In this document: piece after piece, positions 35,083 through 61,074 of the stretch
Position numbering within the stretch: position 1 is the stretch's first letter
How the letters are laid out: each line of letters begins with the position of its first letter
Source: Pseudoalteromonas sp. Scap06
Lineage (GTDB): Bacteria; Pseudomonadota; Gammaproteobacteria; Enterobacterales; Alteromonadaceae
Assembly: GCF_013394165.1 (NCBI RefSeq)
Contig: NZ_CP041330.1
Coordinates: 2,410,501-2,474,500, forward strand
Direction of reading: 5' to 3'
DNA length: 64,000 bases
Notes under the pieces: model-generated
Database searches by the model: none
The model's input: only the letters and a program-made list of their open reading frames with translations
Told to the model about the DNA's origin: nothing
Program-made: the position numbers and the translations under genes

Positions 35083-35673
35083 ATGAATAAAGAGACTCAG
35101 TGCCGCTGCCCATGGTTAGATACAACAAAACCTGACTATGTGGAATATCATGATCATGAATGGGGCGTCCCAGTGTATGAGGATCAACTACTTTTTGAGT
35201 TTTTAACATTAGAATCGGCACAAGCAGGACTTAGCTGGTATACAATATTAAAAAAGCGTGAGAATTATAAAAATGCCTTCGCCAACTTTGATGTACACAA
35301 AGTAGCGGCCTTTACTGAACACGATATAGAAAAATTAATGCAAAATGCGGGCATAGTTCGCAACCGCTTAAAAATTGTCGCAACAATTAATAACGCGAAA
35401 TGCTTTATTGCAATTCAAGAAGAATTTGGCAGTTTTAGTGATTATCAATGGCGGTTTGTTGGTAATAAACCTCAGGTAAACGATCTAGAAACACTGGCCG
35501 ACTACCCTGCAGTTACTGAGGCATCGACGTTATTTGCGAAGGATTTAAAAAAGCGTGGCTTTAAATTTTTAGGCCCAACCACAGTGTATGCTTACATGCA
35601 GGCCTGTGGAATGGTTAACGATCATAGTAATGATTGCTTTAGGAAGGAAGAAGATATCGCGCAGTACTCATAG
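35083..35673 (+). CDS. tag: DNA-3-methyladenine glycosylase I
   Basis: Base-excision repair enzyme removing 3-methyladenine. It matches E. coli Tag along its length: CPW near the start, YHDHEWGVP, LTLESAQAGLSWYTILKKRENY, and the zinc ligands Cys and His near the start with the C-terminal pair in ACGMVNDHSNDC. The frame opens at an ATG at 35062. The ATG at 35083 is preferred because AAAGGA lies six bases before it (196 aa). It has no link to flagella and sits divergently beside flrB. Confidence 0.95.
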   Translation: MNKETQCRCPWLDTTKPDYVEYHDHEWGVPVYEDQLLFEFLTLESAQAGLSWYTILKKRENYKNAFANFDVHKVAAFTEHDIEKLMQNAGIVRNRLKIVATINNAKCFIAIQEEFGSFSDYQWRFVGNKPQVNDLETLADYPAVTEASTLFAKDLKKRGFKFLGPTTVYAYMQACGMVNDHSNDCFRKEEDIAQYS

Positions 35674-35834
35674 GTTAGTAATTAAAATAGATTTAGTTAG
35701 CCTGAACGATGCCAATTAAGTCTAGTTAAAAGCGTTACATTGTGCTGTTTTCATACTTTTTATTGATTCATTTCATAATTAATCTAACACTTATATTCTT
35801 AAATGTTCGAAAAAACTCCATTATCTTTAAAAAA

Positions 35835-36611
35835 TTAAATGTGTTTATCTGTTAAAAACCAAGGGTCTTTCTCATATAACTCTGAGAATGCCTTGTTCAT
35901 ATCTTCGACAGAAATACAGCCAATTCCACCTCGACCTACCTTAGCCCTTTTATAAATACCTTTATCACTGGCATAACGGTTAAAGCGCTCGAAACTCGCC
36001 TGAGACCCCTCTATGTTTAAATCTCGAACCCATAAGGTTGATTTGCATGGAATATAGCATTTGCCATCAAACTTTTTACCATAAAATGTTTTGTCAAACC
36101 TATAAGATACATTATGTACTCTTTCAAAAAAATGTAATAACGTACTGCCTGCATCAAAGTTAATGTTAAGCACCTTAGCCTTTAATTGAACGAGTCGTGA
36201 AAAAGCGCTTCCCTCATCATAGGCATTTTCAGATACTTTATTTGTTAAGAAACTAGCATACTTTCCAATAGCAGAAACAGATACAGAAGGGTCATTGCTT
36301 CGCACTGACAATGGATTAGTCCTAATATATTCTGAGAACATACCACAGTCAGACGCTGTATCATTGACATTAAAATTCTCTCCTTTACCAAATGAATAAG
36401 TAAAGGTAGGTACCACTAAGGTACCTTGGCTTCCTAGTAAATTTAAAAAAGTACTAAGTATTAACTCTAAGGATTGCTGCTTGGAAGTAACTCCTTCCGG
36501 GTAACCTAGGTAACCAACATTACTATGACAAAAAACAGTATCACCTTTACAAATCCCTACAGATTGTAAAGCCAACTCAAAATCAGTCCTACTATAATGA
36601 TAGTTTTGCAA
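35835..36611 (-). CDS. AAC(3)-family N-acyltransferase
   Basis: A 258-residue protein of the aminoglycoside 3-N-acetyltransferase fold (Antibiotic_NAT). Seen: GDTVFCHSNVGYLG, GTLVVPTFTYSF, RSNDPSVSVSAIGKYA, and the catalytic-type segment DAGSTLLHFFERVH with H160 and E163. Many members are not resistance enzymes; they acylate amino sugars or amines in biosynthetic clusters. Here the neighbour one base upstream is an acyl carrier protein, so an ACP-borne acyl group transferred to an amino sugar is likely (inference). The start is TTG at 36611 with AGGTG seven bases upstream. It is the last gene of the six-gene operon. Confidence 0.82.
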   Translation of the reverse strand: MQNYHYSRTDFELALQSVGICKGDTVFCHSNVGYLGYPEGVTSKQQSLELILSTFLNLLGSQGTLVVPTFTYSFGKGENFNVNDTASDCGMFSEYIRTNPLSVRSNDPSVSVSAIGKYASFLTNKVSENAYDEGSAFSRLVQLKAKVLNINFDAGSTLLHFFERVHNVSYRFDKTFYGKKFDGKCYIPCKSTLWVRDLNIEGSQASFERFNRYASDKGIYKRAKVGRGGIGCISVEDMNKAFSELYEKDPWFLTDKHI

Positions 36612-36612
36612 T

Positions 36613-36849
36613 TCATTGCACCTGTAAATCGTTTAAAATATCAACCAACCCATCAATTGAAGAGAACCTTCTATCTTCAAAATGTATCTCATTAAGCACT
36701 ACATTGAAGCTTGATTCACAGAACTCTATTAACATCAGCACGTCAAATGAATCAATATAACCGGATTCAAAATAATTTAACGTTGTATCAATATTTTCCA
36801 TCTGGCTTTTGGAAACAAACCACTGCACTAGCTTTTCTTTTACTAGCAT
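36613..36849 (-). CDS. Acyl carrier protein
   Basis: A 78-residue carrier protein with the phosphopantetheine attachment Ser in FESGYIDSFDVLMLIEF (S34). The frame opens at 36900 inside the cyclase gene. The ATG at 36849 gives a normal ACP length and lies ten bases after the cyclase stop with AAGAG ahead of it, so I take it as the start. It is not the housekeeping AcpP, which has a DSLD motif. It probably carries the product of the AMP-ligase encoded three genes upstream. Confidence 0.86.
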   Translation of the reverse strand: MLVKEKLVQWFVSKSQMENIDTTLNYFESGYIDSFDVLMLIEFCESSFNVVLNEIHFEDRRFSSIDGLVDILNDLQVQ

Positions 36850-36859
36850 TTCATTACTC

Positions 36860-37516
36860 TTACTCAATTGCAAAACACCTAACTGGAGCCCCATCGCCAC
36901 CTTTAATTTTTAAGGGTGCGACGATAAGCGTAAATTCTTCGCTCTCAATCGAACGAATATTAATTAAATATTCAACGATAACAACACCTGCACCAAGCAG
37001 TATTTTATGGTTAGGTGCATCCTTTTCTGCCCCTCTTCCATTTAAAGGGTTGTCAGGCTGGGGGGTATCTAGGGCGATAAGCTTACACCCATTATCTACC
37101 AGCCATTGACAAGCATCCTCAGAAAAAAAGGCATGGTCTGTGTAGTATTCATTAGTGTTTAATTTTAAATCCCAGTCAAACCTGGCAACAAGGCGAACCG
37201 GACACTGGGAACCTAAAGCTAATGTCAACTCATCTTTAGTAATTTCATGTTTATCTGCAAGATTCGAAAAGTCAATAACCCGTGCAGGCCCATTTAATTG
37301 AGCTAATGGTATATTTTCAATTGTTTCACCATCAGCAATAAAGTGCCTTGGGGCATCTATGTGAGTTCCAGTGTGTGTACCTAATACAATTTTTCGCGTT
37401 TCTCTATTTTCAATTCCGTGTCGTCCTAACTGAGTTGATTCAAAAAAGGGGTGCCAATGAGCTGCAAATGTTTGCATCCCCTCTTCAAGCAACATTGTTA
37501 AATCTGTTATTTTCAT
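36860..37516 (-). CDS. Cyclase-family (kynurenine formamidase-like) metal hydrolase
   Basis: A 218-residue member of the cyclase family (PF04199). The metal-binding motif HTGTHIDAPRHF is at residues 48-59 and a second conserved region is LIALDTPQPDN. Family members hydrolyse formyl-kynurenine, cyclic imides or isatin, or act as cyclases in polyketide pathways. The neighbours point to a biosynthetic role on a small acid or amide, but the substrate is unknown. The ATG overlaps the preceding gene by 4 bases. Confidence 0.82.
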   Translation of the reverse strand: MKITDLTMLLEEGMQTFAAHWHPFFESTQLGRHGIENRETRKIVLGTHTGTHIDAPRHFIADGETIENIPLAQLNGPARVIDFSNLADKHEITKDELTLALGSQCPVRLVARFDWDLKLNTNEYYTDHAFFSEDACQWLVDNGCKLIALDTPQPDNPLNGRGAEKDAPNHKILLGAGVVIVEYLINIRSIESEEFTLIVAPLKIKGGDGAPVRCFAIE

Positions 37517-38133
37517 TTTAATACCTCGATGAGTTCTATTATTACCCCTGAGGGAGTTTTAAATAGGAGTATATCCATCTTCTGTTCATTAACTTCAAGA
37601 GTAAATATCTCAGAAATCCAAATTACTTTATTTTTTAGTTTACTCTTAAACAGAGCTAAATCTTTTACTATAAATGCAATTGATGTAAAGCCTTGTAGAT
37701 CCAGTTTTTGTTCTACAAGATCTTGTTCCGTTGAAACAAAAGAGATATCGAGGTTCCATGTTTTTACAGGTCTAGATAACCTTAGGCAATTTCCACTTTC
37801 TTTGAAACCTAGCCCACACCAAAAATCAATTTCCTTTGCAAAACAACCTGATGGTATCAAAATAGTCATCATTGAGTCACTGTAAAATAAACGATTTTGT
37901 ACATTCATGTTTTTACTATGGTGATTAATAATCTCAATGTCATATGAATCACTTCGTTTAAGTAATTTAATATCATGTTTCGCAGAATAGGAAGCAAGTA
38001 AATCCTTTTTTGAATAGTTATTCTCTAACTCTTTTTCATCAAATACCGATTCATATCCTAACTCTTTAAATTTAGAGATATCTCGCTCAACAAAAGCTGA
38101 ATTCCAAGTAAGATGGGAGAATCCAATAATCAT
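37513..38133 (-). CDS. VOC-superfamily (glyoxalase-like) protein
   Basis: A 206-residue protein with two weak beta-alpha-beta-beta-beta repeats, the second clearer: GFTSIAFIVKDLALFKSKLKNK followed by MDILLFKTPSGVIIELIEV, the end pattern of glyoxalase/dioxygenase-fold domains. The first half (FSHLTWNSAFVERDISKFKELGYESVF) looks like the matching first domain. H7 and E202 are candidate metal ligands. The fold is moderately certain and the reaction is unknown. It overlaps both neighbours by 4 bases, so it belongs to the pathway. Confidence 0.62.
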   Translation of the reverse strand: MIIGFSHLTWNSAFVERDISKFKELGYESVFDEKELENNYSKKDLLASYSAKHDIKLLKRSDSYDIEIINHHSKNMNVQNRLFYSDSMMTILIPSGCFAKEIDFWCGLGFKESGNCLRLSRPVKTWNLDISFVSTEQDLVEQKLDLQGFTSIAFIVKDLALFKSKLKNKVIWISEIFTLEVNEQKMDILLFKTPSGVIIELIEVLK

Positions 38134-39491
38134 ATTAAGTACTTTTCGATTAGCTTTGCTTTCATTACTTTTCCCGTGACTGAAGTAGGAAAGCTTTTCA
38201 AAACAATTATTTTTTCAGGAAGAAACTCTGAAGGTAACAAGGTACCCAACCACGCCTTTATAGATTTAATATTTAAATCATGCTCTGATAAAAGAAATAA
38301 TATTGGCACTTCACCCCAAAAATCATGGGGCTTTGCAACTACTGCAGCATCCATAATACCAGCATACTTCAAACTAACATCCTCTATATACCTCGAACTT
38401 ATATTAATTCCACCTTTAATAATAATATCTTTTTTACGTCCAGTTATGCTTAAAACCCCTGATGATGACTTTCCAATATCACCTGTAGCAGGGCACTCTG
38501 AGTCAGCGTTTAAGTAGCCAAGCATCTCCCAAGGAGAATCAATTAGTATTTCGTTCGAATCAGAAAAAGTTACATTTACAAGATCCAGACACCGACCAAC
38601 TCCGTCCAAATGCCCTTCACCGACTTTCGCACAAGATATAAACAACTGCTCACTTGTGCCATAACTTTCTAAAACTTCATGTGCAAATTTATGCTCAAAC
38701 TCTTTTTTTGTATTTTGCATAAGAGGCGCAGTACCGATAAATATCTTTGCTGCGCAATCACTTACCCAGCCTATAGTATCTCTATCGGTTGTCATTTTAG
38801 ATGAAAGGGCTAACATTGAAGGGCTTAGCCAAATAGCATTTGCTCTATATTTAGCAAAATTCTTAAAGATAGTTGCGGCATTACTAGCCGAGAAGGTTGT
38901 ACTTAAAATGACACATCCACCAGCTATTAATGGACATAAAAAAGTGTTAAGAATACCAGCCATGTAAAAACAAGGCATTACATGCAACATCTTAACTTCA
39001 CAACCGATTTCATTATGTTTGTTAAACGCTTCAGCGCAAACAAGTAAGCTTTTTAAGTCGTGGCATACCGCTTTTGGTGTACCTGTAGTCCCTGAAGTAA
39101 AGGTAATAACCTGAGCATTATTCGAACTATCCTTATAGATAAAGCTATTCGTTTTTTTTTCGGGTATGTATTCTTCAAATTCGCCAACATTGTTAATTAC
39201 TTTGTCAGGGTTAAAGATGTCCAGCAATGTGCATTTATAACATTCATTGTAGTTAGCTGATAATGGTAAGACCTTTGCACCTAATGTGAACAATGAAACA
39301 AGAATTACAAAAAACTCCAATTTATCTTCGAGCTCTAGAGCTACTTTATCACCTTGACTTACACCAGCTTTAGTTAACTGATTCATATAAAACATTACCT
39401 GACTCTCAAAATTTAAATAAGTAATCTTTTGAGTACCTTGTATTATTGCAAAAGAGTGTTGTTCTGCTGACTTAAATAGTTCTTTTATCAT
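38130..39491 (-). CDS. AMP-forming acyl ligase (ANL superfamily)
   Basis: Adenylate-forming enzyme, 453 aa, somewhat short for the family. Motifs: P-loop TFTSGTTGTPKAV (130-142), ESYGTSEQ, ATGDIG, GRKKDIIIKGGINIS, and a C-terminal SVTGKVMKAKL with the catalytic Lys. It probably activates a carboxylic acid and loads it onto the ACP encoded downstream, or onto CoA. Its ATG overlaps the aldolase stop as ATGA. Confidence 0.88.
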   Translation of the reverse strand: MIKELFKSAEQHSFAIIQGTQKITYLNFESQVMFYMNQLTKAGVSQGDKVALELEDKLEFFVILVSLFTLGAKVLPLSANYNECYKCTLLDIFNPDKVINNVGEFEEYIPEKKTNSFIYKDSSNNAQVITFTSGTTGTPKAVCHDLKSLLVCAEAFNKHNEIGCEVKMLHVMPCFYMAGILNTFLCPLIAGGCVILSTTFSASNAATIFKNFAKYRANAIWLSPSMLALSSKMTTDRDTIGWVSDCAAKIFIGTAPLMQNTKKEFEHKFAHEVLESYGTSEQLFISCAKVGEGHLDGVGRCLDLVNVTFSDSNEILIDSPWEMLGYLNADSECPATGDIGKSSSGVLSITGRKKDIIIKGGINISSRYIEDVSLKYAGIMDAAVVAKPHDFWGEVPILFLLSEHDLNIKSIKAWLGTLLPSEFLPEKIIVLKSFPTSVTGKVMKAKLIEKYLI

Positions 39492-40552
39492 AGAATTACT
39501 TGCTCATTCACATGGTAATTTTTATAACTCGGCTTCCAATACCCTTTTGCCTTTTGTATTTTTAACAGCTCAATTGCATGCCTTTCAACCATTTCTTCAG
39601 GTGCATTGCAAGTATCTTCTTTACAAACAGAAATAATTAAATGCCTTGGATCAACTTTATATTTTTGTGACATTTCAAAAATTATAGGCATATAACTAGA
39701 ATGGAATAATGACATCCCTGATATAGTGTCAATAGATGAAAGACCATTTTTATTAATCAAAGGTTTTATGAGTTCTTCACCTAAATCCATTACTTGTATT
39801 GGATCTATTTTTCCCTCCAATCCCATACGAGCCAAGCACCCTATAATTTGTTCTGTACTTGTATTACCGGCACTACGTCCAAATCCTTGCAGCGACGAAT
39901 CAATAATTTCAGCACCAGCATTGATAGCGGCAAGAGCGTTTCCCACACCTAACCCCAAATTATTATGCCCATGAAATCCAACTGTTAGACTAGGGCATTC
40001 AGCAAGTATTGCTTGAACATACTCCGTTACTTCTTGTGGTAGCATTCCGCCTGCTGAGTCCACTACATAAACAGCATCAGCCCCAATTTCGAAAGCAGCC
40101 TTTGCAGCCTTAGCCAGCTTGCTAGGCGAAACAGTATACGACTTCATGAAATTGACGTATGTGAGCATACTTTTATTTTTCGCAGAGCTTATAAATTTTT
40201 CACACTTTTTAAAATCAGATATTGTAGAACCTAAGCGAACAAAATCCATTCCATGGTACTCAGCTAACGTAAGGTGTTCTAAATTTGCAATCCCCGGAAT
40301 TGCAAACATCCCCCAATTACCTTTTTTTACACTCTCAGACGCTGCTTTCATATAGACTTCATCAGTCTCAAGAGCAACTCCTATACCTCTTTCTGAAGCA
40401 CCTAGACCGACACCATGACCAACTTCTATTAACTCAAATCCACAGTAATCTAGTGCACTACAAATACCAACTGTATCATTTTTAGAAAACTGAAAGTCAA
40501 TTTCATAACTTCCATCTCTTAAAGTGCATTCTAGTATTTTTGGATACTTCAT
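39488..40552 (-). CDS. DRE-TIM aldolase (4-hydroxy-2-oxovalerate aldolase-like)
   Basis: TIM-barrel metal-dependent aldolase of the HMGL/DmpG family, 354 aa. Seen: ECTLRDGSY at the N-terminus (metal and substrate residues R12, D13) and the metal motif GFHGHNNLG (H194, H196). A C-terminal extension to FKNYHV is short compared with DmpG. The predicted reaction is aldol condensation or cleavage with a 2-oxo acid; the real substrate is unknown. The frame opens at a GTG one codon earlier. The ATG at 40552 has AAGG eight bases upstream. It is the first gene of the operon. Confidence 0.83.
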   Translation of the reverse strand: MKYPKILECTLRDGSYEIDFQFSKNDTVGICSALDYCGFELIEVGHGVGLGASERGIGVALETDEVYMKAASESVKKGNWGMFAIPGIANLEHLTLAEYHGMDFVRLGSTISDFKKCEKFISSAKNKSMLTYVNFMKSYTVSPSKLAKAAKAAFEIGADAVYVVDSAGGMLPQEVTEYVQAILAECPSLTVGFHGHNNLGLGVGNALAAINAGAEIIDSSLQGFGRSAGNTSTEQIIGCLARMGLEGKIDPIQVMDLGEELIKPLINKNGLSSIDTISGMSLFHSSYMPIIFEMSQKYKVDPRHLIISVCKEDTCNAPEEMVERHAIELLKIQKAKGYWKPSYKNYHVNEQVIL

Positions 40553-40590
40553 CACTAATACCTTTTAATAATTGGAGCACTACTTAAAAG

Positions 40591-40606
40591 TGCGCTTATT
40601 TTGCCT
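40591..40606 (-). promoter_or_regulatory. Possible sigma-54 promoter of the aldolase-ACP operon
   Basis: The minus strand reads GAGGCAAAATAAGCGCAC. GG lies at -24 (40605-40604) in GGCA, ten bases follow, then GC at -12 (40593-40592). The -12 half is poorer than in the other sites of this window (AGCGC instead of TTGC). Spacing to the gene, with a start near 40581, is good. Chance matches are expected at this level, so it is a suggestion only. Confidence 0.3.
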
Positions 40607-40801
40607 CTACTCGAAGACCAGTCGATGAACATTGCCATACTTAAAGTTTTTACTAGCTTTCAAGTATAAAGCAAAATACAAGCCACTATTAATAACCTTG
40701 GCAGCTAGATATTCCTATAAATATTGTAAACCGTATTTATGAAATGTTATCTTAAGTGTTAAACATTATACCTAACCCTATATAAAGGTAATAATACTAC
40801 A

Positions 40802-41491
40802 ATGAAGTATGATAGAGATAAATCATGGAATAGCATATATGCTGAAAACACAGAAATAGCCTACCCACCAGAAGCAGTTATTAGAATTTTTTTAGGGCAA
40901 TTTCCAAAGTTAGAGTTTCTAGATAAAAATTTTCAAGGTAAGAAAATTTTAGATGTAGGTTTTGGTGATGGCCGTAATTTCCCTCTTTTTAATAGACTTG
41001 GTTTATTGAGTAGTGGGGTAGAAATCACAAAAGATATCGTAAATAATGCCTCTGAAAGAAAGGAGTTTAAAGGCCAAGAATTAGACTTACGAATAGGTAG
41101 CTGCGAAGAAATCCCATTCGAAGCGAATATGTTTGATTATTTAATATCTTGGAATAGTAGTTATTATATGAGTTCTGAAAGTTTTGATTATCAAAAACAT
41201 ATTGATGAATTCGTAAGAGTAACAAAGCCAAAAGGCTATCTAATCGTATCTGTTCCAACTGCTTCAGCTTTTATTTACGAATCGTGTGAAGAGCTCGAAA
41301 AAGGGTATGTGAGAATTAAAAATGATTACTTCGGAGTTCGCAATGGTCAAGTCATGCGTCGCTTTGAAGATAAAGATGATTTTTTGAGCTGCTTTTCAAA
41401 TATTTCACAATATTGTGAATGCGCAGAAATAAAAATGGATTGGTTCGGATTAGCTTACAATTGGTATGTTGCTGTAATTAAATTAAACTAA
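40802..41491 (+). CDS. Class I SAM-dependent methyltransferase
   Basis: A 229-residue methyltransferase with motif I KKILDVGFGDGRNFPLF, acidic motif II region GVEITKD, and motif IV FDYLISWNSSYYM in the usual order. The substrate is unknown. Small methyltransferases like this often modify glycans or lysine residues of flagellin near flagellar loci, which would fit here (inference). It is a single gene, divergent from the aldolase operon. A weak sigma-70-like pair TTGTAA-N17-TTATCT at 40724-40752 could serve it. Confidence 0.85.
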   Translation: MKYDRDKSWNSIYAENTEIAYPPEAVIRIFLGQFPKLEFLDKNFQGKKILDVGFGDGRNFPLFNRLGLLSSGVEITKDIVNNASERKEFKGQELDLRIGSCEEIPFEANMFDYLISWNSSYYMSSESFDYQKHIDEFVRVTKPKGYLIVSVPTASAFIYESCEELEKGYVRIKNDYFGVRNGQVMRRFEDKDDFLSCFSNISQYCECAEIKMDWFGLAYNWYVAVIKLN

Positions 41492-41496
41492 CAAAA

Positions 41497-41514
41497 GAGC
41501 GCATTTATGCGCTC
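41497..41514. terminator. Terminator between methyltransferase and DUF4910 genes
   Basis: GAGCGCA-TTTA-TGCGCTC hairpin with seven pairs between convergent genes. On the minus strand it is followed by TTTTGTT, a usable T-run for the DUF4910 gene. On the plus strand the following CCTTCTACCC is a poor T-run, so it mainly serves the minus strand. Confidence 0.75.
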
Positions 41515-41526
41515 CTTCTACCCTAT

Positions 41527-42819
41527 TTAGTCTTGAACTTTGATTAAACCAGCTTTTTCGAGAGATTCAACTAAAGGTAAAAGCTCAAAAATATTAGCTC
41601 GAATCTTATCAGCAAGCTCTAATAAATCACTACCTCCATCTGCATAAGCTAGTAAATTAGTGAGCATTTTTACTTGAGTATAATCTTGCTGCATATTGCT
41701 CGTATTAGGATACAATCCTCTTTTACCAAGTTGCGGCTCACATAAATTAGTTGCTTTATATACTTTATTTTTTTCTAATAATTGAATAGCGCCAACAATT
41801 ACATCTGCAGCACCTCTTAATCCAGCAGGTGTAATTAATGTAAGATCATCTAATGATGTATGATATTCGGGATATTCCCCGTATTTGCTCCGCATAATTG
41901 AACATACAGGTAAATCAACACCAGGAGCGCAAAATTGACGCTCATCACTACCGCGCTCAAGAAAAGAATACTGTTTAAAACTACCAACTAAATTCTTTAA
42001 AGCACTTAGTGCTGCTCTGTCGGCTAAAGTACGAGAGTTGCGTGAACTTAGGTAAGAGTACTCTCTTTCATCACCGACACATGTGACAATGAATCCAGCT
42101 TTCAGATGCTTTTTCAAACGTTTTAAATGTTTTGAAATATAAACTATTGATCCTATGGTTTCTGGTAAAAATAAAACTCTGTAAGTATATCTACGGTCAG
42201 TCATTAATTTAAGTTGCTCAATTAATGCCATACAAACAACTGGTCCAGATAATTCATTATTAGCTAAAGAAGGATGGCATATGTATGTAGAAAGCAAAAT
42301 TTCATTTTCTGTTTCTCCAGGTAAAACAAACTCTCCATACGTTAAATGCCCATTGAATAAATTTGTATCTATAACAACTTGGTAACTACCTTCAGTCAAA
42401 GATAAACGTTGAGAGTGGCTAAGACAAAATCCCCAATTACGCTCATAGTATGATGTAACATATGGTATTGCGTCAGGCATATCCTCTATACTGTAAAGGT
42501 GGGCTTGTAATTCTTTTAAAGAAAGTGTCTTATTAACAGGCTCTGAGTAACCCATTAGATGTAGGTTATTAACTTTAAAATCGCATATTTTATTACCATT
42601 AGGATCAATTATGTATGCGTTATTTACTTTCCACTCTTGCGGTACCTTCCAGTCAAAAGCGATAGTATTTGAAGGAACCTCATGTGCAACCAGTTCCGGT
42701 ACAAACTGTTTGATATATCTCAATGTTTCTCTTACACCATCACCTGTAAGGCTTCGATTGATTGGAAATAGCTCCTTTGCCCACCCATACATTCTATTTC
42801 CATCGATTGCTTCGTTCAT
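41527..42819 (-). CDS. DUF4910 (M28 aminopeptidase-like) protein
   Basis: A 430-residue protein of the DUF4910/DUF2172 family, which has an M28-type zinc-peptidase fold. Seen: the N-terminal signature ELFPINRSLTGDGVRETLRYI, a metal-site-like stretch YICHPSLANNELSG, GDEREYSYLSSRNSRTLAD, and EYPEYHTSLDDL with Asp/His ligands. The family is common in surface-polysaccharide and nonulosonate clusters, but its substrate is not established. A C-terminal helical part (about 355-430) may be a winged-helix-like domain. It is a single gene ended by the hairpin at 41497-41514. Confidence 0.8.
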   Translation of the reverse strand: MNEAIDGNRMYGWAKELFPINRSLTGDGVRETLRYIKQFVPELVAHEVPSNTIAFDWKVPQEWKVNNAYIIDPNGNKICDFKVNNLHLMGYSEPVNKTLSLKELQAHLYSIEDMPDAIPYVTSYYERNWGFCLSHSQRLSLTEGSYQVVIDTNLFNGHLTYGEFVLPGETENEILLSTYICHPSLANNELSGPVVCMALIEQLKLMTDRRYTYRVLFLPETIGSIVYISKHLKRLKKHLKAGFIVTCVGDEREYSYLSSRNSRTLADRAALSALKNLVGSFKQYSFLERGSDERQFCAPGVDLPVCSIMRSKYGEYPEYHTSLDDLTLITPAGLRGAADVIVGAIQLLEKNKVYKATNLCEPQLGKRGLYPNTSNMQQDYTQVKMLTNLLAYADGGSDLLELADKIRANIFELLPLVESLEKAGLIKVQD

Positions 42820-42928
42820 TTTTAACCTTATTTTACTTTACTTTGTATAGAAAGCGTTACCTGCATAAAACACATGCTAGATTATTCATTAACTTAGGAG
42901 TGTACAATAAGAAAAAGAGCACCGCACA

Positions 42929-42953
42929 CCATTAAATTGTCACTATTTAATGG
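42929..42953 (-). terminator. Possible terminator of flrA
   Basis: Nine-pair inverted repeat CCATTAAAT / ATTTAATGG with a 7-base loop, about 80 bases after the flrA stop. On the minus strand a T-run (CTCTTTTTC) follows only after about 10 bases, so efficiency is doubtful. Nothing else recognisable lies in this gap (42820-43034). Confidence 0.35.
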
Positions 42954-43034
42954 GAGGCAAATCAAGTTTTAAAGCCAAAATTAAAAATAACATAGAACTT
43001 TATTAACTACAGTTCAATTTATTAGCGGTTTTAA

Positions 43035-44471
43035 TCAATCCCTAGAAAGATTATACTTTTTCATTTTTTCGACCAGTGTGGTTCGCCTTACGCCTAGTAC
43101 TTCAGCAGCACGGGCAACAACGTAATCAAAGCGCTCTAATGCCTGGGTGATTAAGTTAATTTCAAGCTCAGCTAAGTACTCCTTAAGCTCAATACCTTCA
43201 TCGGGCAATAAACCGGGTGCCGCTTGAGCAAAATCATCTTCGAGGTCTATTTCGTCTTCGCTGAATCCGCCACTAAAAATATCATTAAACGCATCACGCT
43301 CCATCAGTTCTTCTGGGTACTGTGGCTCATAGGCTTCAACTTCAATGTAGCGGTATTTATTAGGTAAATCAGGAACATCAACCACCTTGTCTGGGAACAT
43401 AATAACCATACGCTCAACTAAGTTAGCGAGCTCACGAATATTACCTGGCCAAGAATGCTCTTTTAAACTATCAATAGCACGCTCTGTAAACTTAGCCGTA
43501 GTGCCGCTTTGTTCATTTACACGGCGCATTAGCTCTTTAAGTAGCAAAGGGATGTCTTCTGCACGTTGAGCAAGTGATGGACTCTCAATAGGAAAAACAT
43601 TTAAGCGATAGTATAAGTCTTCTCGGAATGAGCCTTTTTCAATCATGCTTTCAAGATCACGGTGGGTTGCAGCAATAACACGTACATCGGCTTGAATCGC
43701 TTTGGTACCGCCAACGCGCTCATAGCTACGCTCTTGTAGTACTCGCAGTAACTTGACCTGCATTTGCAGCGGCATATCCCCTATTTCATCTAAAAATAGC
43801 GTGCCACCTTGCGCCAATTCAAACCGGCCTTTACGTGCTGAAATAGCCCCGGTAAATGCACCTTTTTCATGGCCAAATAGTTCACTTTCTAGTAGCTCCG
43901 CAGGAATTGCCCCACAGTTTACTGGTACAAATGGGCCTTTGTTACGCTTAGAAAGCAGATGCACATTACGAGCAACTACTTCTTTACCCGTGCCCGACTC
44001 ACCTAAAATAAGCACGTTGGCATCGGTTTTAGCAACTTGAGTAATTAAAAAGCGTAAATCTTTTACAGCTTTGGTTTCACCTACAAGGCCATCAAAGGTG
44101 CTTTTTTCTTTATTATGTTGATGCTCATGAGGCAGCATACGCTGATATTGCTGACAATCATGGAGTAACTGAGTGGTAACTTCATGAGTAAATGGCTCAC
44201 AAATTAGTCCAACAACATTGGCGAGACTCAGTAGCGGTTTGAGCGTTTCACCAATCAGTAAAAAAGGAAATGTTGGATAGCGTTTAATTAAACTTTCATG
44301 ATCTAAAGATTGCAGCGCCCCTAACACCACAATACATTCTTTGTTTTGATAGTGACTACATGCCTGCTCAAAGTCAGCTTCTGTTTGCAACTGTACCGCC
44401 TCACCAATAAAAGTAAGCGATGCATATAATCCAATAGAGCGATTATTATTATTATCTAAAATTAAGATCAT
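43035..44471 (-). CDS. flrA: Master flagellar sigma-54 activator FlrA (FleQ)
   Basis: Top regulator of the polar flagellar cascade, 478 aa. The N-terminal domain has a receiver-like fold, but the phospho-acceptor position is not Asp (IVVLGALQS), as in FleQ. The AAA+ domain has Walker A GESGTGKE (157-164), GAFTGA and GGTLFLDE. The C-terminal helix-turn-helix is [23 protein letters not shown]. Residues R140 and R168-N169 are placed like the cyclic-di-GMP-binding arginines of FleQ/FlrA (inference). In Vibrio and Shewanella flrA adjoins flrB; here about 8 kb of other genes separates them. Confidence 0.93.
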
Positions 44472-45558: not shown

Positions 45559-46605
<1,047 letters not shown>

Positions 46606-46618
46606 AAGTTATTACTCC

Positions 46619-47770
46619 ATGATCCCTTACGGCAAACAAGCTATTTCTCAACAAGACATCGACGCAGTAGTTGATGTCTTAAAATCCGACTGGTTAACGC
46701 AAGGCCCTAAAGTCCCCGCTTTTGAGCAAGCCATTGCGAAATATTGTGGCAGCACCTATGCATGTGCAACAAACAGTGCCACATCGGCATTGCACATTGC
46801 ATGTTTAGCGTTAAATGTAGGGAAAGACGATATTGTATGGACCTCCCCTATTTCGTTCGTTGCTTCTGCAAATTGTGCACTTTACTGTGGTGCTCAAATA
46901 GATTTTGTGGATATTGATGTAGCAACAGGGAATATGTGCACTGATGAGTTAGAAAAAAAACTTATTATTGCTAAAGAAAATAATCGTTTACCAAAGGTAG
47001 TCATCCCAGTTCACCTGGCAGGTCAGTCATGTGATATGCAGGCTATATATCAACTTGCAGTTGAATATGGCTTTAAGGTTATTGAAGATGCTTCACATGC
47101 TATTGGTGCAAAATATTTAGGCAGCCCAGTGGGCAGTTGTGAGTTTTCAGATATTTGCGTATTTAGCTTTCATCCAGTCAAGATAATCACCTCAGCTGAA
47201 GGAGGCATGGCGGTAACAAACAATAAACAACTTGCTAAAAGAATGGAGCGTTTACGTAGCCATGGAATTACAGCCAACCCGAGTGAAATGACCGAACCAA
47301 GTCATGGCCCTTGGTACTATCAGCAAATTGAACTCGGCTTTAATTATAGAATGACTGAGTTGCAAGCGGCATTAGGCCTTAGCCAGCTTTCAAAGCTCGA
47401 TGAATTTGTTACAAAGCGCAACCAGCTGGCTAAAGTCTATTCTAGCAAATTAAAAGACTTGCCTATTAATCATTTAACTCAATCACAACAAAGCTACTCT
47501 AGTTACCATTTATATATTTTAACCTTGTCTGGTGACGCAGTTGTAAAACATGAGTCTCTTATCTGTAGTTTAAGAGAGCGAGGCATAACGAGTCATTTGC
47601 ATTATATTCCAATTCATATACAACCTTATTATAAAGAGCTTGGCTTTAAGGCAAATGACTTTCCAAATGCAATAAAATATTACAGTTGCGCTCTCACTAT
47701 ACCTTTGCATCCTGAATTAACTAATTCAGAACAAAATTTCATAATAGAAACACTAGCCGAACAACTATGA
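46619..47770 (+). CDS. pseC: UDP-4-amino-4,6-dideoxy-L-AltNAc aminotransferase PseC
   Basis: PLP-dependent aminotransferase of the DegT/DnrJ/EryC1 family, second step of the pathway. The 383-residue protein has the PLP lysine K188 in FSFHPVKIITSAEGG, an upstream VIEDASHAIGA, and LGFNYRMTELQAALGLSQL. It is 13 bases after pseB, and its stop overlaps the next start. Confidence 0.94.
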   Translation: MIPYGKQAISQQDIDAVVDVLKSDWLTQGPKVPAFEQAIAKYCGSTYACATNSATSALHIACLALNVGKDDIVWTSPISFVASANCALYCGAQIDFVDIDVATGNMCTDELEKKLIIAKENNRLPKVVIPVHLAGQSCDMQAIYQLAVEYGFKVIEDASHAIGAKYLGSPVGSCEFSDICVFSFHPVKIITSAEGGMAVTNNKQLAKRMERLRSHGITANPSEMTEPSHGPWYYQQIELGFNYRMTELQAALGLSQLSKLDEFVTKRNQLAKVYSSKLKDLPINHLTQSQQSYSSYHLYILTLSGDAVVKHESLICSLRERGITSHLHYIPIHIQPYYKELGFKANDFPNAIKYYSCALTIPLHPELTNSEQNFIIETLAEQL

Positions 47771-48627
47771 AAATCGCTTTAGGAACCGCCCAATTTGGTT
47801 TAGATTATGGCATTAGTAATACTGTCGGACAGGTTAAAACTGATGAGGTTAAACGAATACTCAGCCTCGCACTAGACGCTGGTATAACAGTTGTTGATAC
47901 GGCATCGGCTTATGGTAGTAGCGAGAGTAATATTGGTCAATCGGGTTTAAGCCAAGCTTTATCTATTGTTACTAAAGTATCAGGTGAAAATATTCACGCG
48001 CAGGTAGAAAAAAGCTTAAAAAATCTGAACTGTGAGTCAATTGATGCAGTGTTATTTCATAATTGTGAGTTGCTTTTAAGCAGTTCAGGGGAAGACTATT
48101 TTTCGCAGCTAGAGCAGTTAAAAGCCAAAGGCATAGTTAAGCGAATAGGTGTTTCTGTTTATAACCCTAAAGAGCTTGAATTACTTAGTGAAAGGTTTAA
48201 TTTAGATCTGGTTCAAGCTCCTGTAAATTGGTTAGATCAACGTTTTATACAACCTGAAATCATCGATAAGCTAATAGAAAAAAATATAAAGCTTCACGCT
48301 CGCTCGATATTTTTACAAGGGCTTTTATTAGAGCCAATGATTCAAAATAACGCTTATTTTTCACAGTTTAATAATGAGTTTTCTCAGTATAATTGTGTTA
48401 TTAATGAATTAGGCTGCAATCGGCTAACTTTCGCATTAGCAATTATTGCGCAAAAAGCCCCTCATATCGAAAATGCAATTATAGGGTGTTGCTCACAAGA
48501 ACAGTTAACACAATTAATAGACAGCTACTGCGTCGCAAAAAAGCTTACACTCCCCTCGGATGACGTTTTAGCCTCTTTAGCTTCAAGTAATTTAGCATTA
48601 ATCAATCCATCGCAATGGCTTGGTTAA
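47767..48627 (+). CDS. Aldo/keto reductase of the nonulosonate operon
   Basis: A 286-residue aldo/keto reductase with all four catalytic residues in place: Asp and Tyr in VVDTASAYGSSE, Lys in SIVTKVSG and His in LFHNCEL. The start overlaps pseC as ATGA. It is not part of the minimal Pse pathway, so it probably reduces a keto intermediate of a variant sugar or of a side chain. The substrate is unknown. Confidence 0.86.
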   Translation: MKIALGTAQFGLDYGISNTVGQVKTDEVKRILSLALDAGITVVDTASAYGSSESNIGQSGLSQALSIVTKVSGENIHAQVEKSLKNLNCESIDAVLFHNCELLLSSSGEDYFSQLEQLKAKGIVKRIGVSVYNPKELELLSERFNLDLVQAPVNWLDQRFIQPEIIDKLIEKNIKLHARSIFLQGLLLEPMIQNNAYFSQFNNEFSQYNCVINELGCNRLTFALAIIAQKAPHIENAIIGCCSQEQLTQLIDSYCVAKKLTLPSDDVLASLASSNLALINPSQWLG

Positions 48628-48648
48628 TTAAGCGCTAGGATTAAAAAT

Positions 48649-49413
48649 ATGATAAATGCTTTCATGCAAGCTAGGACAGGATCAACACGCTTACCTAATA
48701 AAGTTTTAAAGAATCTCCAAGGTTTACCTATGTTTATTCAACAAGCTAAGCGTGTACAACGAGCCAAGTTGGTAGACAACCTAGTTATTGTCACAAGTAC
48801 TGATGAAAGTGACGACATTATTGAACAGTTATGCAATGAGAATAATTTATTATGCTTTAGAGGAAGTTTAAGCAATGTTCTCAGCCGGTACTTTCATGCT
48901 GAACTCAATTACCCTTGTGATGCTATCGTTAGAATAACAGCTGACTGCCCAGTGATTGACCCTGAGCTCATGGACTATGTCATTAATAGTCATTTAAAAA
49001 ACAACAATGATTATACTTCAAACTGCTTAGTAGCCACATACCCTGATGGTCTCGATATTGAAGTTATTAGTAAGAAGGCCTTACACAACGCTTATAAATA
49101 TGCAGAAAAGCCTTCTGAGTTAGAACACGTAACACCTTATATAACAAGTCACCCTGATAAGTATAAGTTACAGAATATCCAAAGTGAGCAAGACCTGTCT
49201 GCCTATAGATGGACTGTTGACGAACCCAAAGACTTTGAGTTGATTTCATCAATATATGAAAATTTATATGTAAAAAAGCCTAATTTTAATTATCAAGATA
49301 TACTGGAATTGTTATCACATAAACCAGAGCTGAACTTATTAAACCCCCAAATTGCTCGAAATGAGGGAATGGTTAAATCATTAAAACAAGATAAAGAAGA
49401 AGGCTATGAATAA
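48649..49413 (+). CDS. SpsF-like cytidylyltransferase
   Basis: Nucleotidyltransferase of the CMP-nonulosonate synthetase/SpsF family, 254 aa. It has the N-terminal nucleotide loop NAFMQARTGSTRLPNKVL and IVRITADCPVIDPELMD. In this operon it would activate the nine-carbon sugar as the CMP derivative, the PseF role, but it is of the SpsF type and not the classical PseF type. It overlaps the next gene by 8 bases. Confidence 0.85.
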   Translation: MINAFMQARTGSTRLPNKVLKNLQGLPMFIQQAKRVQRAKLVDNLVIVTSTDESDDIIEQLCNENNLLCFRGSLSNVLSRYFHAELNYPCDAIVRITADCPVIDPELMDYVINSHLKNNNDYTSNCLVATYPDGLDIEVISKKALHNAYKYAEKPSELEHVTPYITSHPDKYKLQNIQSEQDLSAYRWTVDEPKDFELISSIYENLYVKKPNFNYQDILELLSHKPELNLLNPQIARNEGMVKSLKQDKEEGYE

Positions 49414-50692
49414 TTACACTAATTCAGCGGAGTGGCTACATAGAGCTGAAAAAACCATTCCTCTAGGTTCCCAAACTTTTAGTAAGAGTAGAATTGCGTT
49501 CCCACAGAATGCAGCACCTTTATTTATTGAACGAGGTTTAGGTTCTAAAGTGTGGGATGCAGATAATAATGAGTATATTGACTTTGTGAATGGCTTACTT
49601 TCTGTTTCTTTAGGCTACTGTGATGCTGATGTGAATCAAGCTGTTATAGACCAGCTTAGCTCAGGGATCACTTTCTCCCTTCCTCATAGATTAGAAATGG
49701 AAGTCGCCGAAGAACTCACAAAGCTAATACCTTGCGCTGAAATGGTGCGTTTTGGTAAAAATGGCAGTGATGCAACATCTGCTGCTATTCGACTAGCAAG
49801 AGCTTATACAAAAAGAGAGCATGTTGCTGTCTGTGGTTATCATGGTTGGCAAGATTGGTATATTGGCTCAACAACCAGAAATTTAGGTGTCCCTGAATGT
49901 GTTAGAGCGCTTACCCATGCGTTTACATACAATGATCTTAGCTCATTAGAAAGGCTCTTTACTGAATACCCTGAACAGCTTGCAGCTGTAATTATGGAGC
50001 CAATGAATGTCTCCTTTCCAGAAACGGGATTTCTTCAAGGAGTACAAGCACTTTGTAAAAAACATGGCTCTGTACTAATTTTTGACGAAACAATTACCGG
50101 TTTTCGGTTCGATCTACATGGTGCTCAAGGCTTATTTAATATTACACCCGACCTAGCAACCTTTGGCAAAGGCATGGCAAACGGATTCCCTATCTCAGCT
50201 GTCGTAGGTAAACAAAAAATAATGTCATTGATGGAAGATATTTTCTTCTCCGGTACCTTTGCGGGCGAAACCATGTCTTTAATTGCTACAAAAACAACAT
50301 TAAAAAAAATGCAGCAAGAAAGAGTACTGACACATATTCACACTTTAGGTGAAAAATTAATTTGTGAGCTTAATAAATTAATAGAAAAACACAAAGTAAA
50401 AGATTGGCTGAGCACTGCAGGTCATCCGTCATGGTCTTTTATTATTATTAAAGACACTCAAAAATACTCCTCATTAGAGCTAAAATCTTTATTTATTCAA
50501 GAGATGTGCTCTAGAGGTATTTTAATTGGTGGTAGTCATAACCTTAGCTATGCCCATACACATGATGATATAGAAAAATTACTTAATGCATACGATGAAG
50601 TTATTTTTATTTTAAAAAATACAATAGAAACACAAAATTTATATGATGTTTTTAAAGGACATCTTTTAGAGCCAGTTTTTAAAGTTAGATAA
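49406..50692 (+). CDS. Class III aminotransferase (glutamate-1-semialdehyde aminomutase-like)
   Basis: PLP enzyme of 428 aa in the GSA-aminomutase branch: GLGSKVWDADNNEYIDFVNG, VRFGKNGSDATSAAIRLARAYT, FDETITGFR, and PLP-lysine K255 in ATFGKGMANGFP. It is not HemL, which has a different context. In nonulosonate operons such enzymes occur beside SpsF-like proteins, presumably acting on a sugar or side-chain carbonyl. The substrate is unknown. Confidence 0.85.
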   Translation: MNNYTNSAEWLHRAEKTIPLGSQTFSKSRIAFPQNAAPLFIERGLGSKVWDADNNEYIDFVNGLLSVSLGYCDADVNQAVIDQLSSGITFSLPHRLEMEVAEELTKLIPCAEMVRFGKNGSDATSAAIRLARAYTKREHVAVCGYHGWQDWYIGSTTRNLGVPECVRALTHAFTYNDLSSLERLFTEYPEQLAAVIMEPMNVSFPETGFLQGVQALCKKHGSVLIFDETITGFRFDLHGAQGLFNITPDLATFGKGMANGFPISAVVGKQKIMSLMEDIFFSGTFAGETMSLIATKTTLKKMQQERVLTHIHTLGEKLICELNKLIEKHKVKDWLSTAGHPSWSFIIIKDTQKYSSLELKSLFIQEMCSRGILIGGSHNLSYAHTHDDIEKLLNAYDEVIFILKNTIETQNLYDVFKGHLLEPVFKVR

Positions 50693-50749
50693 ATGACAAC
50701 TAATGTAAGACAACTCTTCTCTTAGTTAAATTTATCGAGGATAGTAAGT

Positions 50750-51421
50750 ATGAAAGTAGCAGTAATTGTCGCCCATCCTGATGATGAGACACTCGGCTGT
50801 GGTGCCACAATCGCGAACCATATTGAAAAGTGTGATGAAGTATATATTTTAACACTTTCTAATGGGGTTAGTTCGCGCCTAGAATATACTGAAGCAGAGA
50901 TTCAAACCCGGCAAGCAGCCTTTTTAAATGCCGCCCAACATTTAGGCGTTTCACCTAATAATCTAACATCATTAGATTTTCCTGATAATGAATTCGATAC
51001 CATACCACTTTTAAAAATAGCGCAAGCCATCGAACTATTTTTATCTAAAAATATAATTGCACGCGTGTATACCCATTATCATAGCGATTTAAATGTTGAT
51101 CATCGAAAAACTTATGAAGCTGTTTTAACAGCTTGCAGGCCGCAACCCATGCAATCAGTAAAGCAAATATTTTGCTTCGAAACACTATCAAGCACTGAAT
51201 GGGCAAGTCATCGTTACGAGGCATTCAAACCGAACTATTTTGTCAATATCGAGCATGTATTTAGTAAAAAAATAAAAGCTCTTACAGCTTATAAAGATGA
51301 AATGAGAGAAGCACCACACACTCGAAGTCTTGAGAATATTCAAGCACTCGCTAAATTTAGAGGCATGTGTATAGGCACTCCACTTGCTGAAGCATTTTAT
51401 ATTGAACGCTTTATAGATTAG
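50750..51421 (+). CDS. PIG-L family deacetylase
   Basis: A 223-residue zinc-dependent N-deacetylase of the LmbE/PIG-L family with AHPDDE at residues 8-13 and the second metal motif HYHSDLNVDHRKTYEAV. It probably removes an N-acetyl group from an amino-sugar intermediate, exposing an amine for another acyl group. That would fit with the formyltransferase and extra acetyltransferase of the operon (inference). A 57-base gap precedes it. Confidence 0.88.
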   Translation: MKVAVIVAHPDDETLGCGATIANHIEKCDEVYILTLSNGVSSRLEYTEAEIQTRQAAFLNAAQHLGVSPNNLTSLDFPDNEFDTIPLLKIAQAIELFLSKNIIARVYTHYHSDLNVDHRKTYEAVLTACRPQPMQSVKQIFCFETLSSTEWASHRYEAFKPNYFVNIEHVFSKKIKALTAYKDEMREAPHTRSLENIQALAKFRGMCIGTPLAEAFYIERFID

Positions 51422-51480
51422 GCCTATTACGCTCGTTATAAAGTTGCGGTTTTAATACCTAATTTAGGATAGAAAATAAA

Positions 51481-51957
51481 ATGATAACATTAAGGGAAGC
51501 CGAGCAAAGTGATTGTACTACTTTATACCAGTGGGCTAATGATCCTGTTATTCGCAGCTGCGCATTAAAAGACGCCCCAATTACCTTACAAAATCACTTA
51601 AATTGGTTTAATAAGCAACTAGCGTCTCTTAATAGTAAAATTTATATTGCATCTATTGACGACAAACCAATCGGACAAGTCAGATTTAATCAAACAGATC
51701 TTAATACATATGAAATAGACACGCATTTATCTCCTTGCAGTAGAGGCTATGGTTACGGTCGAAAAATGTTAAAACAAGCGCTAAAACTAATAGAAAAAAA
51801 TAAAAATAGTACATTTATTGCGATTATTTTAATTGAAAATATAGCATCTATTAAATTATTCGAAGCCTGTAACTTTAAACGTGAAAAAGAAACAACAATA
51901 GAAAATAAAAAATGTTTCATTTACATCCGTAAAGAGGCTCTAGATGGTGAGCATTAA
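51481..51957 (+). CDS. pseH: GNAT N-acetyltransferase, PseH-like
   Basis: A 158-residue GNAT enzyme with an acetyl-CoA loop region (LSPCSRGYGYGRKMLKQALKLI) and the RimJ/RimL-type start LREAEQSDCTTLYQWANDPVIR. Between PseC and PseG in the pathway, PseH N-acetylates the 4-amino sugar nucleotide. The position directly before pseG (14-base overlap) supports this role. A second GNAT gene at 54861-55406 could alternatively hold it. Confidence 0.75.
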   Translation: MITLREAEQSDCTTLYQWANDPVIRSCALKDAPITLQNHLNWFNKQLASLNSKIYIASIDDKPIGQVRFNQTDLNTYEIDTHLSPCSRGYGYGRKMLKQALKLIEKNKNSTFIAIILIENIASIKLFEACNFKREKETTIENKKCFIYIRKEALDGEH

Positions 51958-53059
51958 TATAAATAAAAGTAATACCGAAACTCCGACTCGATTACTCAAC
52001 ATCGCTTTTAGAGTTGATGCTTCTTTAAATATTGGTTCAGGCCATGTGATGCGCTGCCTCACACTAGCGACAGCAATTAGAAAGGCTGCCAATGTTAATA
52101 TCACTTTTTTCTGTCGCGATGCCGCCGGTAATAGTAATGAAAATATAATCCAATCTGGGTTTGAGCTTGTTAGAATGGCTCCTCCAAAAAATACCATCGA
52201 CTTAAAAAACTACAGCTCATGGCTGGGTACTAGCATAGATGATGACTGTGAAGAGTTTCTAAAATTAACAGCGGGGAAAAATTACGATTTAATCGTAATA
52301 GATCATTATGCTATTGATAACCATTGGCATAATAAAGTAAAAAGCATAACCAAAAAAATTATGGTTATTGACGATCTAGCGAACCGAATACACAATTGTG
52401 ACTTGTTATTAGATCAAACCTACCAATGCCCAACAGTTAAATACTCGCATCTGATAAATAACCATACAAAACTCCTACTTGGCTCAAGCTTTGCTTTATT
52501 AAGGCCTGAGTTTTTAGATTTTCAAAAAGCATCAATTGTAAAAAAAGAGCGCACCTTACTCATAATGTTTGGAGGAACAGATCCTGACAATTTGACTCTT
52601 CAAGTATTAGCGCGAGTAATCAAATTAAAATACTTTGAAAGAATTAATGTAATCCTAAATAAAACAGCAAAAAACGTGAAATCAGTGTTTAACTTTGCAC
52701 AATGTCATAAAAAAGTCTTTTTACATATATCGCCGAGTAATATTGCGGAAATTATGTCAACGGCAACAATAGCGATTGGTGCAGCTGGAACAACATCATG
52801 GGAAAGATGCGCTTTAGGCCTTCCTGCTGTTGTTATTGTACAAGCAGACAATCAGCGAGAGATCGCTAACGCGCTTCAATTAGCTGAAGTGATCCGCTTT
52901 ATTTCAATTGCAGAGATTGAAGACAAGTTAATTAAAGAAATTGAATTTTGGCAAAATAGGTTAAAATTAAGTAATGATGTTCATAAAAATTGTATTAATA
53001 TTTGTGATGGCAAAGGCACTGTAAGAGTCACCAACGAAGTGCTAAAAGTCATAGAGTAG
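51944..53059 (+). CDS. pseG: UDP-2,4-diacetamido-trideoxy-altropyranose hydrolase PseG
   Basis: GT-B-fold UDP-sugar hydrolase of 371 aa that releases the hexose for condensation with phosphoenolpyruvate. The N-terminal loop FRVDASLNIGSGHVMRCLTLA carries the catalytic-type His. Other motifs are VIDHYAID, VIDDLANR and MFGGTDPDN, with AIGAAGTTSWERCALGLPAVV in the C-terminal domain, all PseG-like. It overlaps the acetyltransferase gene upstream. Confidence 0.93.
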   Translation: MVSININKSNTETPTRLLNIAFRVDASLNIGSGHVMRCLTLATAIRKAANVNITFFCRDAAGNSNENIIQSGFELVRMAPPKNTIDLKNYSSWLGTSIDDDCEEFLKLTAGKNYDLIVIDHYAIDNHWHNKVKSITKKIMVIDDLANRIHNCDLLLDQTYQCPTVKYSHLINNHTKLLLGSSFALLRPEFLDFQKASIVKKERTLLIMFGGTDPDNLTLQVLARVIKLKYFERINVILNKTAKNVKSVFNFAQCHKKVFLHISPSNIAEIMSTATIAIGAAGTTSWERCALGLPAVVIVQADNQREIANALQLAEVIRFISIAEIEDKLIKEIEFWQNRLKLSNDVHKNCINICDGKGTVRVTNEVLKVIE

Positions 53060-53132
53060 CAATTTACCTGAAGCTGAATAACTATTAATTTGACTATGAG
53101 ATAGCGTCTCTAAAACCGATAAGCGATTGAAT

Positions 53133-53810: not shown

Positions 53811-53812
53811 TC

Positions 53813-55406: not shown

Positions 55407-55425
55407 TATAAGTAAGTTATTTACC

Positions 55426-55452
55426 AAAAAAGGCCAAAGCTAAGCTTTGGCC
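55426..55452 (-). terminator. Terminator of flaG-fliD-maf
   Basis: Strong hairpin GGCCAAAGC-TTA-GCTTTGGCC followed on the minus strand by TTTTTTGG. The stop codon of maf (55442-55440) lies in the loop. On the plus strand the following bases (GGTTTATTATAG) form no T-run, so it ends the minus-strand operon chiefly. Confidence 0.9.
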
Positions 55453-57455: not shown

Positions 57456-57467
57456 AGTTCACTCCGC

Positions 57468-60857: not shown

Positions 60858-60950
60858 GTTATAACTCCTGATTACTTTCGTAATGTAACTAATTGATTTT
60901 AACCAAGAGCCATCACAATAAAAACCTGTTCAAGCTCCGTTCTAATTAAG

Positions 60951-60977
60951 TTAACGGCTGTTATAAAATTACCTTTA
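60951..60977 (-). promoter_or_regulatory. Sigma-28 (FliA) promoter of the downstream flagellin
   Basis: On the minus strand TAAAG (60977-60973), fourteen bases, then GCCGTTAA (60958-60951). This matches TAAAG-N14-GCCGATAA with one difference in the -10. Transcription should start near 60944, leaving an untranslated leader of about 87 bases before the flagellin ATG. Confidence 0.85.
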
Positions 60978-61060: not shown

Positions 61061-61074
61061 AATTTTAATTATTA

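Follow-up and report, generated by a model that had tools for sequence, protein, structure and literature searches.

The question raised by the flagellar regulatory region of Pseudoalteromonas sp. Scap06 is what genes for making, activating and transferring an acyl group are doing there. In the window (the whole stretch of DNA analysed, 64,000 nucleotides, positions 2,410,501 to 2,474,500 of contig NZ_CP041330.1), the minus strand encodes, in gene order, a DmpG-like (HMGL) pyruvate aldolase (39488..40552, ATG start, with a GTG just upstream at 40555), a standalone AMP-dependent acid ligase or adenylation enzyme (38130..39491), a VOC-fold enzyme that is likely an isomerase/epimerase or oxygenase (37513..38133), a PF04199 metal-dependent hydrolase or 'cyclase' of the kynurenine formamidase/isatin hydrolase fold (36860..37516), a DltC-like acyl carrier protein (ACP; 36613..36849) and an AAC(3)-fold N-acyltransferase (35835..36611, TTG start). 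Open reading frame (ORF) calling recovered all six genes, with 4-base overlaps at three joints and gaps of 10 and 1 bases at the other two, just as a first-pass annotation of the sequence had described them. Judged from sequence, the insert that contains these genes is probably a cassette that makes an acyl group and transfers it to pseudaminic acid (Pse).

An eight-gene insert between flrA and tag

The set of six genes stands as first grouped, but its extent does not: the insert (35654..43036) has eight genes, including one for an S-adenosylmethionine-dependent methyltransferase on the plus strand (40802..41491, with homologues in seven of the 15 other loci described below) and one on the minus strand for a DUF4910/DUF2172/HTH_47 protein of the Cj1295/CA_C2195 family (41527..42819). 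Its ends are given by a close relative (G020), in which homology to the window stops at 43037 and resumes at 35653. The earlier placement in the flrA-flrB region holds, except that flrB is not a direct neighbour: tag, a DNA glycosylase gene, separates the insert from flrB and is found between flrA and flrB in seven of the nine relatives looked at, which puts the insertion point between flrA and tag. The G+C content is 31-40% in the cassette genes and 30-39% in the Pse island of the same window, compared with 42-44% in flrA and flrC-flrB. The 3' end of tag (35653-35673) is unlike that of G020 beyond the insertion point, giving 203 rather than 202 aa and other last residues.

Joint absence of the insert and the Pse island in a close relative

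From fliD to past flrC, homology between the window and G020 is broken at two places only: at 35,654-43,036, opposite 143 bp between flrA and tag in G020, and at 45,561-57,467, the Pse biosynthesis and Maf island, opposite 184 bp between fliS and fliD. FlrA is 100% identical in the two genomes, and identity is 95.9% over the fliS-fliS-flrA stretch, 98.1-98.2% on the tag-flrB side and 84.5% on the fliD side. The window genome has one detectable NeuB-family synthase, PseI (53813..54877, plus strand), inside the island, and the AAC(3)-type gene is the only PF02522 gene found in it; no NeuB-type synthase was found in G020, G021 or G022. Because G020 lacks both the insert and the Pse island, these non-contiguous elements come or go together in this pair of genomes. 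Gain rather than loss is the simpler reading, since G021 and G022 also lack NeuB, have flrA and tag adjacent and have aldolases of DmpG type only. Between G020, in which Pse genes are absent, and the window, the flagellin genes align at their ends and not throughout the middle (L072 9561-12600, window 59409-62544).

Recurrence of the cassette and linkage to pse genes

The first-pass annotation knew of no described pathway with exactly this set, and a related, partly different system is that of Campylobacter jejuni (see below). The set is also found elsewhere and recurs as a cassette in 16 distinct loci, usually with DUF4910 (14 of 16) and in half of them (8 of 16) with a homologous methyltransferase, all six genes being present in 12. 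The order aldolase-ligase-VOC-cyclase-ACP-AAC(3) is found again in Vibrio, Grimontia, Pseudoalteromonas phenolica, a Roseobacter and several uncultured genomes, and the cassette is spread over Pseudomonadota, a Myxococcales assembly and one Nitrospirales metagenome-assembled genome (MAG). The six-gene grouping is not due to chance, because the identical order of all six genes is found again in distant bacteria.

The loci comprise the window, L015 (Vibrio coralliilyticus), L016 (P. phenolica, also L012), L017 (Grimontia hollisae), L018-L027, L035 and L039. L037 duplicates L020, G997 and G1205 are apparently one genome (same NeuB places), L038 (aldolase only) was not counted apart from L026, and L036 and L060 (aldolase only) were not counted as cassette loci; L028, with a 33% cyclase match and no cassette, was dropped. 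The counts are lower bounds, because the sequence available is limited to short contigs for L026 and L027 and stops 1.1 kb upstream of the aldolase in L019. The AAC(3)-type gene of L017 (10904-11670) is split over two frames by a sequencing error or a real break, and L023 has an ACP and a divergent AAC(3). L017, with this split gene, and L039, with its genes in two blocks, are both among the 12 loci counted as having all six.

A cyclase profile scan of one genome per species gave 14 loci, of which 13 were close relatives. At E 1e-80, the aldolase profile matched three of 369 genomes of the class and four of 398 genomes of the phylum, both counts including the own genome; one of these, G642, has the aldolase only. 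Among 196 relatives, nine had an aldolase match at E 1e-30, with a high-identity match only in the own genome and in P. phenolica (G009). The ligase scan of genome contigs gave six candidate stretches and no relatives, and the cyclase had no relatives among plasmids, phages and viral contigs at the limits used. The VOC protein matched one of 394 genomes of the order, its own; the 36% identical P. phenolica copy was not among the matches, that genome possibly not having been drawn.

As to the survey for co-occurrence with pse genes that had been suggested as a check, 11 of the 16 loci, window included, hold pse genes. Each of 16 genomes searched for NeuB (15 of them distinct, and one, G642, having the aldolase only) gave a match, as did P. 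phenolica and the window genome. A flagellin gene lies no more than 17 kb from the cassette in six of 16 loci (the window, L016, L035 and the genomes of L021, L022 and L024); in the last three, which resemble each other and do not count as independent, pseB is preceded by a flagellin ORF and a 258-aa ORF. The 258-aa ORF between flagellin and pseB (L074 5435-6211, with counterparts in L075 and L076) had no Pfam match in L074, where it was tested. Flagellin was found in 11 of the 16 genomes searched, which becomes 12 of the 16 cassette genomes when G642 is left out and the window, with ORFs homologous to the Pfam-matched flagellins of P. phenolica, is added; no flagellin gene was found in the other four (L018, L023 and L027, titled MAG, and L019), which are draft or uncultured genomes. 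Capsule-type genes adjoin the cassette in V. coralliilyticus (L015), G. hollisae (L017) and the Myxococcales assembly (L019), and the cassette is therefore not specific to flagellin. Of the original proposal of carrier-dependent N-acyl decoration of a flagellin nonulosonate, the core is supported by the pse linkage, the joint absence in the relative and the single synthase, whereas the tie to flagellin is loosened by the capsule-type neighbours and by the four genomes in which no flagellin gene was found. The cassette reads as a putative Pse decorator that would serve flagellin in this strain and other glycans in other bacteria.

Aldolase with an exchanged catalytic pair

The aldolase matches the HMGL-like family of Pfam (2.7e-36) and has the fold of the DmpG/BphI family (8ih7, 6.4e-69). 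It passes the cut-off of the wider NCBIfam subfamily PRK08195 (283.1 of 229 bits) but misses that of the DmpG equivalog TIGR03217 (251.2 of 286 bits). RDG, His-x-His and other motifs are invariant in a 13-row alignment. The catalytic residues of DmpG-type enzymes are presumably the His of RDGxH and the Tyr of VYSS; neither motif occurs in the cassette aldolase (RDGSY ... FHSSYM), which has Tyr17 and His285 there in 13 of 13 cassette rows (numbered from the GTG of the 355-codon ORF). When 13 loci with DmpG-like aldolases were compared, seven had His/Tyr and six had Tyr/His, one of the latter (L032) repeating L020. The exchange of His and Tyr as a pair suggests a distinct, putatively biosynthetic subfamily of aldolases.

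Aldolases of the swapped type also occur apart from the cassette. L036 (G642, 7718-13055) is a pse cluster with such an aldolase, an ATP-grasp enzyme, a methyltransferase, an amidohydrolase and a PIG-L enzyme, possibly an ACP-free version of the system. L060 (9865-15233 in G044, another genome of the same genus) is a natural-product-like cluster in which genes for a swapped-type aldolase, an FAA hydrolase and an adenylation-thiolation didomain precede an asparagine-synthase-like ORF. A wider idea, for now tentative and rather less likely to be right than wrong, is that the swapped His/Tyr pair marks, within the class II pyruvate aldolases, a branch devoted to biosynthesis and with modular partners (AMP-ligase, ACP and AAC(3) here, ATP-grasp in L036 and the didomain in L060), which would feed freshly assembled hydroxy-oxo acids into activated acyl groups that replace the acetyls of Pse, yielding an N-acyl group not yet described on a nonulosonate.

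Other enzymes of the cassette

The ligase matches the AMP-binding family (4.2e-34), its adenylation motifs and C-terminal lysine are invariant in the aligned rows, and among solved structures it scores best against a malonyl-CoA synthetase and a nonribosomal peptide synthetase adenylation domain. The cyclase has the fold and the HxGTHxDxP metal motif of PF04199 (1.1e-27), with HTGTHxDAP intact and, together with H58, H170 and E182, invariant in the aligned rows (truncated L027 left out); its named relatives are hydrolases, and it misses the KynB cut-off of TIGR03035 (81.8 of 223 bits). The Pfam match of the VOC-like protein is below the cut-off (0.04), but its predicted model has the VOC fold (predicted local distance difference test score, pLDDT, 94.9). 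H7, E67, H71 and E200 are invariant in 12 rows, and what is presumably the position of the usual third His is occupied by S, C or G; the modelled fold does not tell an isomerase from an oxygenase.

The ACP has no match to PF00550 or to any other ACP family of Pfam that was found, but its family profile matches the D-alanyl carrier proteins (DltC) at 5.5e-10, and the phosphopantetheine serine, Ser34, is invariant in 11 of 11 rows (DSF here, D/N-S-F/M/L in the family). The AAC(3)-type protein matches Antibiotic_NAT (PF02522, 4.1e-28, 99 bits against a cut-off of 25) and misses the NCBIfam AAC_3 equivalog cut-off (70 of 270 bits); the AAC(3) histidine, presumably functional, is invariant in nine aligned rows (L017, L023, L035 and L039 left out). 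L035 and L039 are in none of the family alignments. Enzymes of the AAC(3) fold are established as N-acyltransferases.

Proposed pathway and its alternatives

The aldolase would condense pyruvate with a short aldehyde to a 4-hydroxy-2-oxo acid, which the VOC enzyme (by isomerisation or oxidation) and the PF04199 hydrolase (by opening of a lactone or amide) would convert to the final acid, most likely a short hydroxy acid that is possibly O-methylated. The AMP-ligase would adenylate this acid and load it on the DltC-like ACP, the DUF4910 protein or the PIG-L enzyme of the Pse island would free an amine on the Pse sugar, and the AAC(3)-fold enzyme would acylate that amine from the acyl-ACP. The acyl group may be O-methylated by the methyltransferase, and Maf would attach the decorated sugar to flagellin.

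It is hardly credible that these genes form instead a catabolic or resistance operon, for breakdown of 4-hydroxy-2-oxo acids or acetylation of aminoglycosides: the family names of the aldolase and of AAC(3) and the PRK08195 score point that way, but both equivalog cut-offs (TIGR03217 and AAC_3) are missed, the catalytic pair is swapped, and the operon has a carrier protein and linkage to pse. Delivery of the decorated sugar to a surface polysaccharide in this strain, with the place beside flagellar regulators accidental, would agree with the capsule-type neighbours of L015, L017 and L019 and with the four cassette genomes that gave no flagellin match, yet it is very improbable, the only NeuB found in the genome being in the Maf-flagellin island that is present or absent together with the insert. 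The acid might also be assembled on the carrier, the ligase loading a simple acid first and the VOC enzyme and cyclase acting on the ACP-bound intermediate, as the ligase comes second in gene order and carrier-bound tailoring is common; this is quite unlikely, given that the named relatives of the aldolase and the hydrolase use free small molecules. The N-acyltransferase activity established for the AAC(3) family speaks against a product that is not an N-acyl group of Pse but lies further out in the flagellin glycan, as an acyl or acyl-like unit attached to another sugar or to a hydroxyl, an unlikely outcome with which the methyltransferase within the insert is nevertheless consistent. There is a parallel for it in Shewanella oneidensis, in which flagellin has a 274 Da inner unit and a separate methylated unit of 236-264 Da (PMC3765264), but in C. 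jejuni a change of the 5-N-acyl group has been linked to the DUF4910 relative Cj1295 (PMC3068675).

Several observations weigh against the preferred reading of an acyl-making and acyl-transfer cassette for Pse. A NeuB-family match is also present in 9 of 14 control genomes and in six of nine family members examined, and since NeuB is so common anyway, physical linkage to pse genes is stronger evidence than its presence. Four further NeuB-bearing Pseudoalteromonas genomes (G001, G002, G005 and G012) gave no aldolase match, and the cassette is thus optional. In L023 and L027, the ligase and cyclase genes have no VOC gene between them, and the VOC enzyme is therefore not always needed or is located elsewhere. 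L020 consists of the first four genes only, with no ACP or AAC(3) found nearby. The halves of L039 are about 10 kb apart, its DUF4910 protein is only 27% identical, and it has no clear adjacent pse gene, only a 28% identical PseC-like aminotransferase. Finally, according to Das et al. 2014 (PMC4000134), DUF4910 is without known peptidase catalytic residues, which weakens its proposed role as a deacylase.

Further features of the Pse island

The island (45561..57467) also encodes the Maf flagellin glycosyltransferase (55440..57455, minus strand; PF20157, 2.6e-41) and, on the plus strand, a PIG-L deacetylase that is a possible source of the free amine (50750..51421) and a formyltransferase (53127..53810). 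Because it holds both of the latter enzymes, the Pse sugar of the window may carry a formyl group in addition to the new acyl group. Neither enzyme was found in the P. phenolica locus L016. L015 and L023 have homologues of two further island enzymes, an aldo/keto reductase (47767-48627) and a class-III aminotransferase (49406-50692), by which the sugar may gain another amine.

Possible exchange of the cassette

By tblastn, all six cassette proteins of the window are nearer to those of V. coralliilyticus (aldolase 71%, ligase 51%, VOC 48%, cyclase 87%, ACP 54% and AAC(3) 57% identical) than to those of P. phenolica (67%, 44%, 36%, 81%, 42% and 55%, respectively), a species of the same genus with a FlrA approximately 78% identical to that of the window. 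The DUF4910 protein is the opposite (67% to P. phenolica, 53% to V. coralliilyticus), and the Pse enzymes are nearly tied (PseC 60% versus 59%, PseI 59% versus 55%). The proximity of the six proteins to another genus, with DUF4910 opposed, suggests that marine gammaproteobacteria have exchanged the cassette and that it may have a mosaic history.

Comparison with known systems

Surface charge, phage and host recognition and flagellar assembly can all be altered by the N-acyl groups that pseudaminic acid carries, and to our knowledge the origin of most unusual Pse acyl groups is unassigned. The cassette is compact and recurring, has a natural control in the close relative without cassette and Pse genes, and leads directly to what may be a new acid and to the function of DUF4910. 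Other systems that decorate surface sugars with acyl groups by way of a carrier or ligase are the tetronate genes of Vibrio cholerae O1 and the ACP-containing flagellar glycosylation islands of Aeromonas and Pseudomonas aeruginosa, with front ends of LuxC/LuxE or ketosynthase type. The cassette aldolase resembles the 4-hydroxy-2-oxovalerate aldolases DmpG and BphI in fold and family, metal-binding His-x-His and RDG motif, but differs in the exchange of what are presumably the catalytic His and Tyr positions and in its biosynthetic context.

The closest described case is the Cj1295 system of C. jejuni, the locus of which we take to include ACPs, an AMP-ligase and the AAC(3)-like Cj1296/7. The window, like that system, has DUF4910 with pse genes at a flagellin locus. 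In C. jejuni, Cj1295 is a DUF4910-type protein encoded right after the Pse genes Cj1293 and Cj1294, adjoins Cj1296/7, annotated as an N-acetyltransferase, and is required for the presence on flagellin of di-O-methylglyceroyl-Pse, 5-N-(2,3-di-O-methylglyceroyl)-Pse, a Pse with a non-acetyl, O-methylated acyl group (PMC3068675); the accessible text names no aldolase, VOC or cyclase there. In a survey of 16,130 genomes of C. jejuni, a correlation was seen between the presence of cj1295 and pse genes (PMC13130089). The DUF4910 (CA_C2195) neighbourhoods of Das et al. 2014 (PMC4000134) likewise include a NeuB-like synthase, ACP, N-acetyltransferases, a methyltransferase and a 'glyoxylase', but the ligase in their table is ATP-grasp and not AMP-ligase, and the accessible main text mentions no aldolase and names no cyclase gene. 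No description of this gene set was found in the open-access literature searched, and the aldolase-VOC-cyclase front end is not named in the accessible text of PMC3068675, PMC4000134, PMC3765264 or PMC13130089. The enzymatic acyl decoration of nonulosonates is thus of a known kind, and what is new is the unusual acid-making front end with its swapped His/Tyr aldolase.

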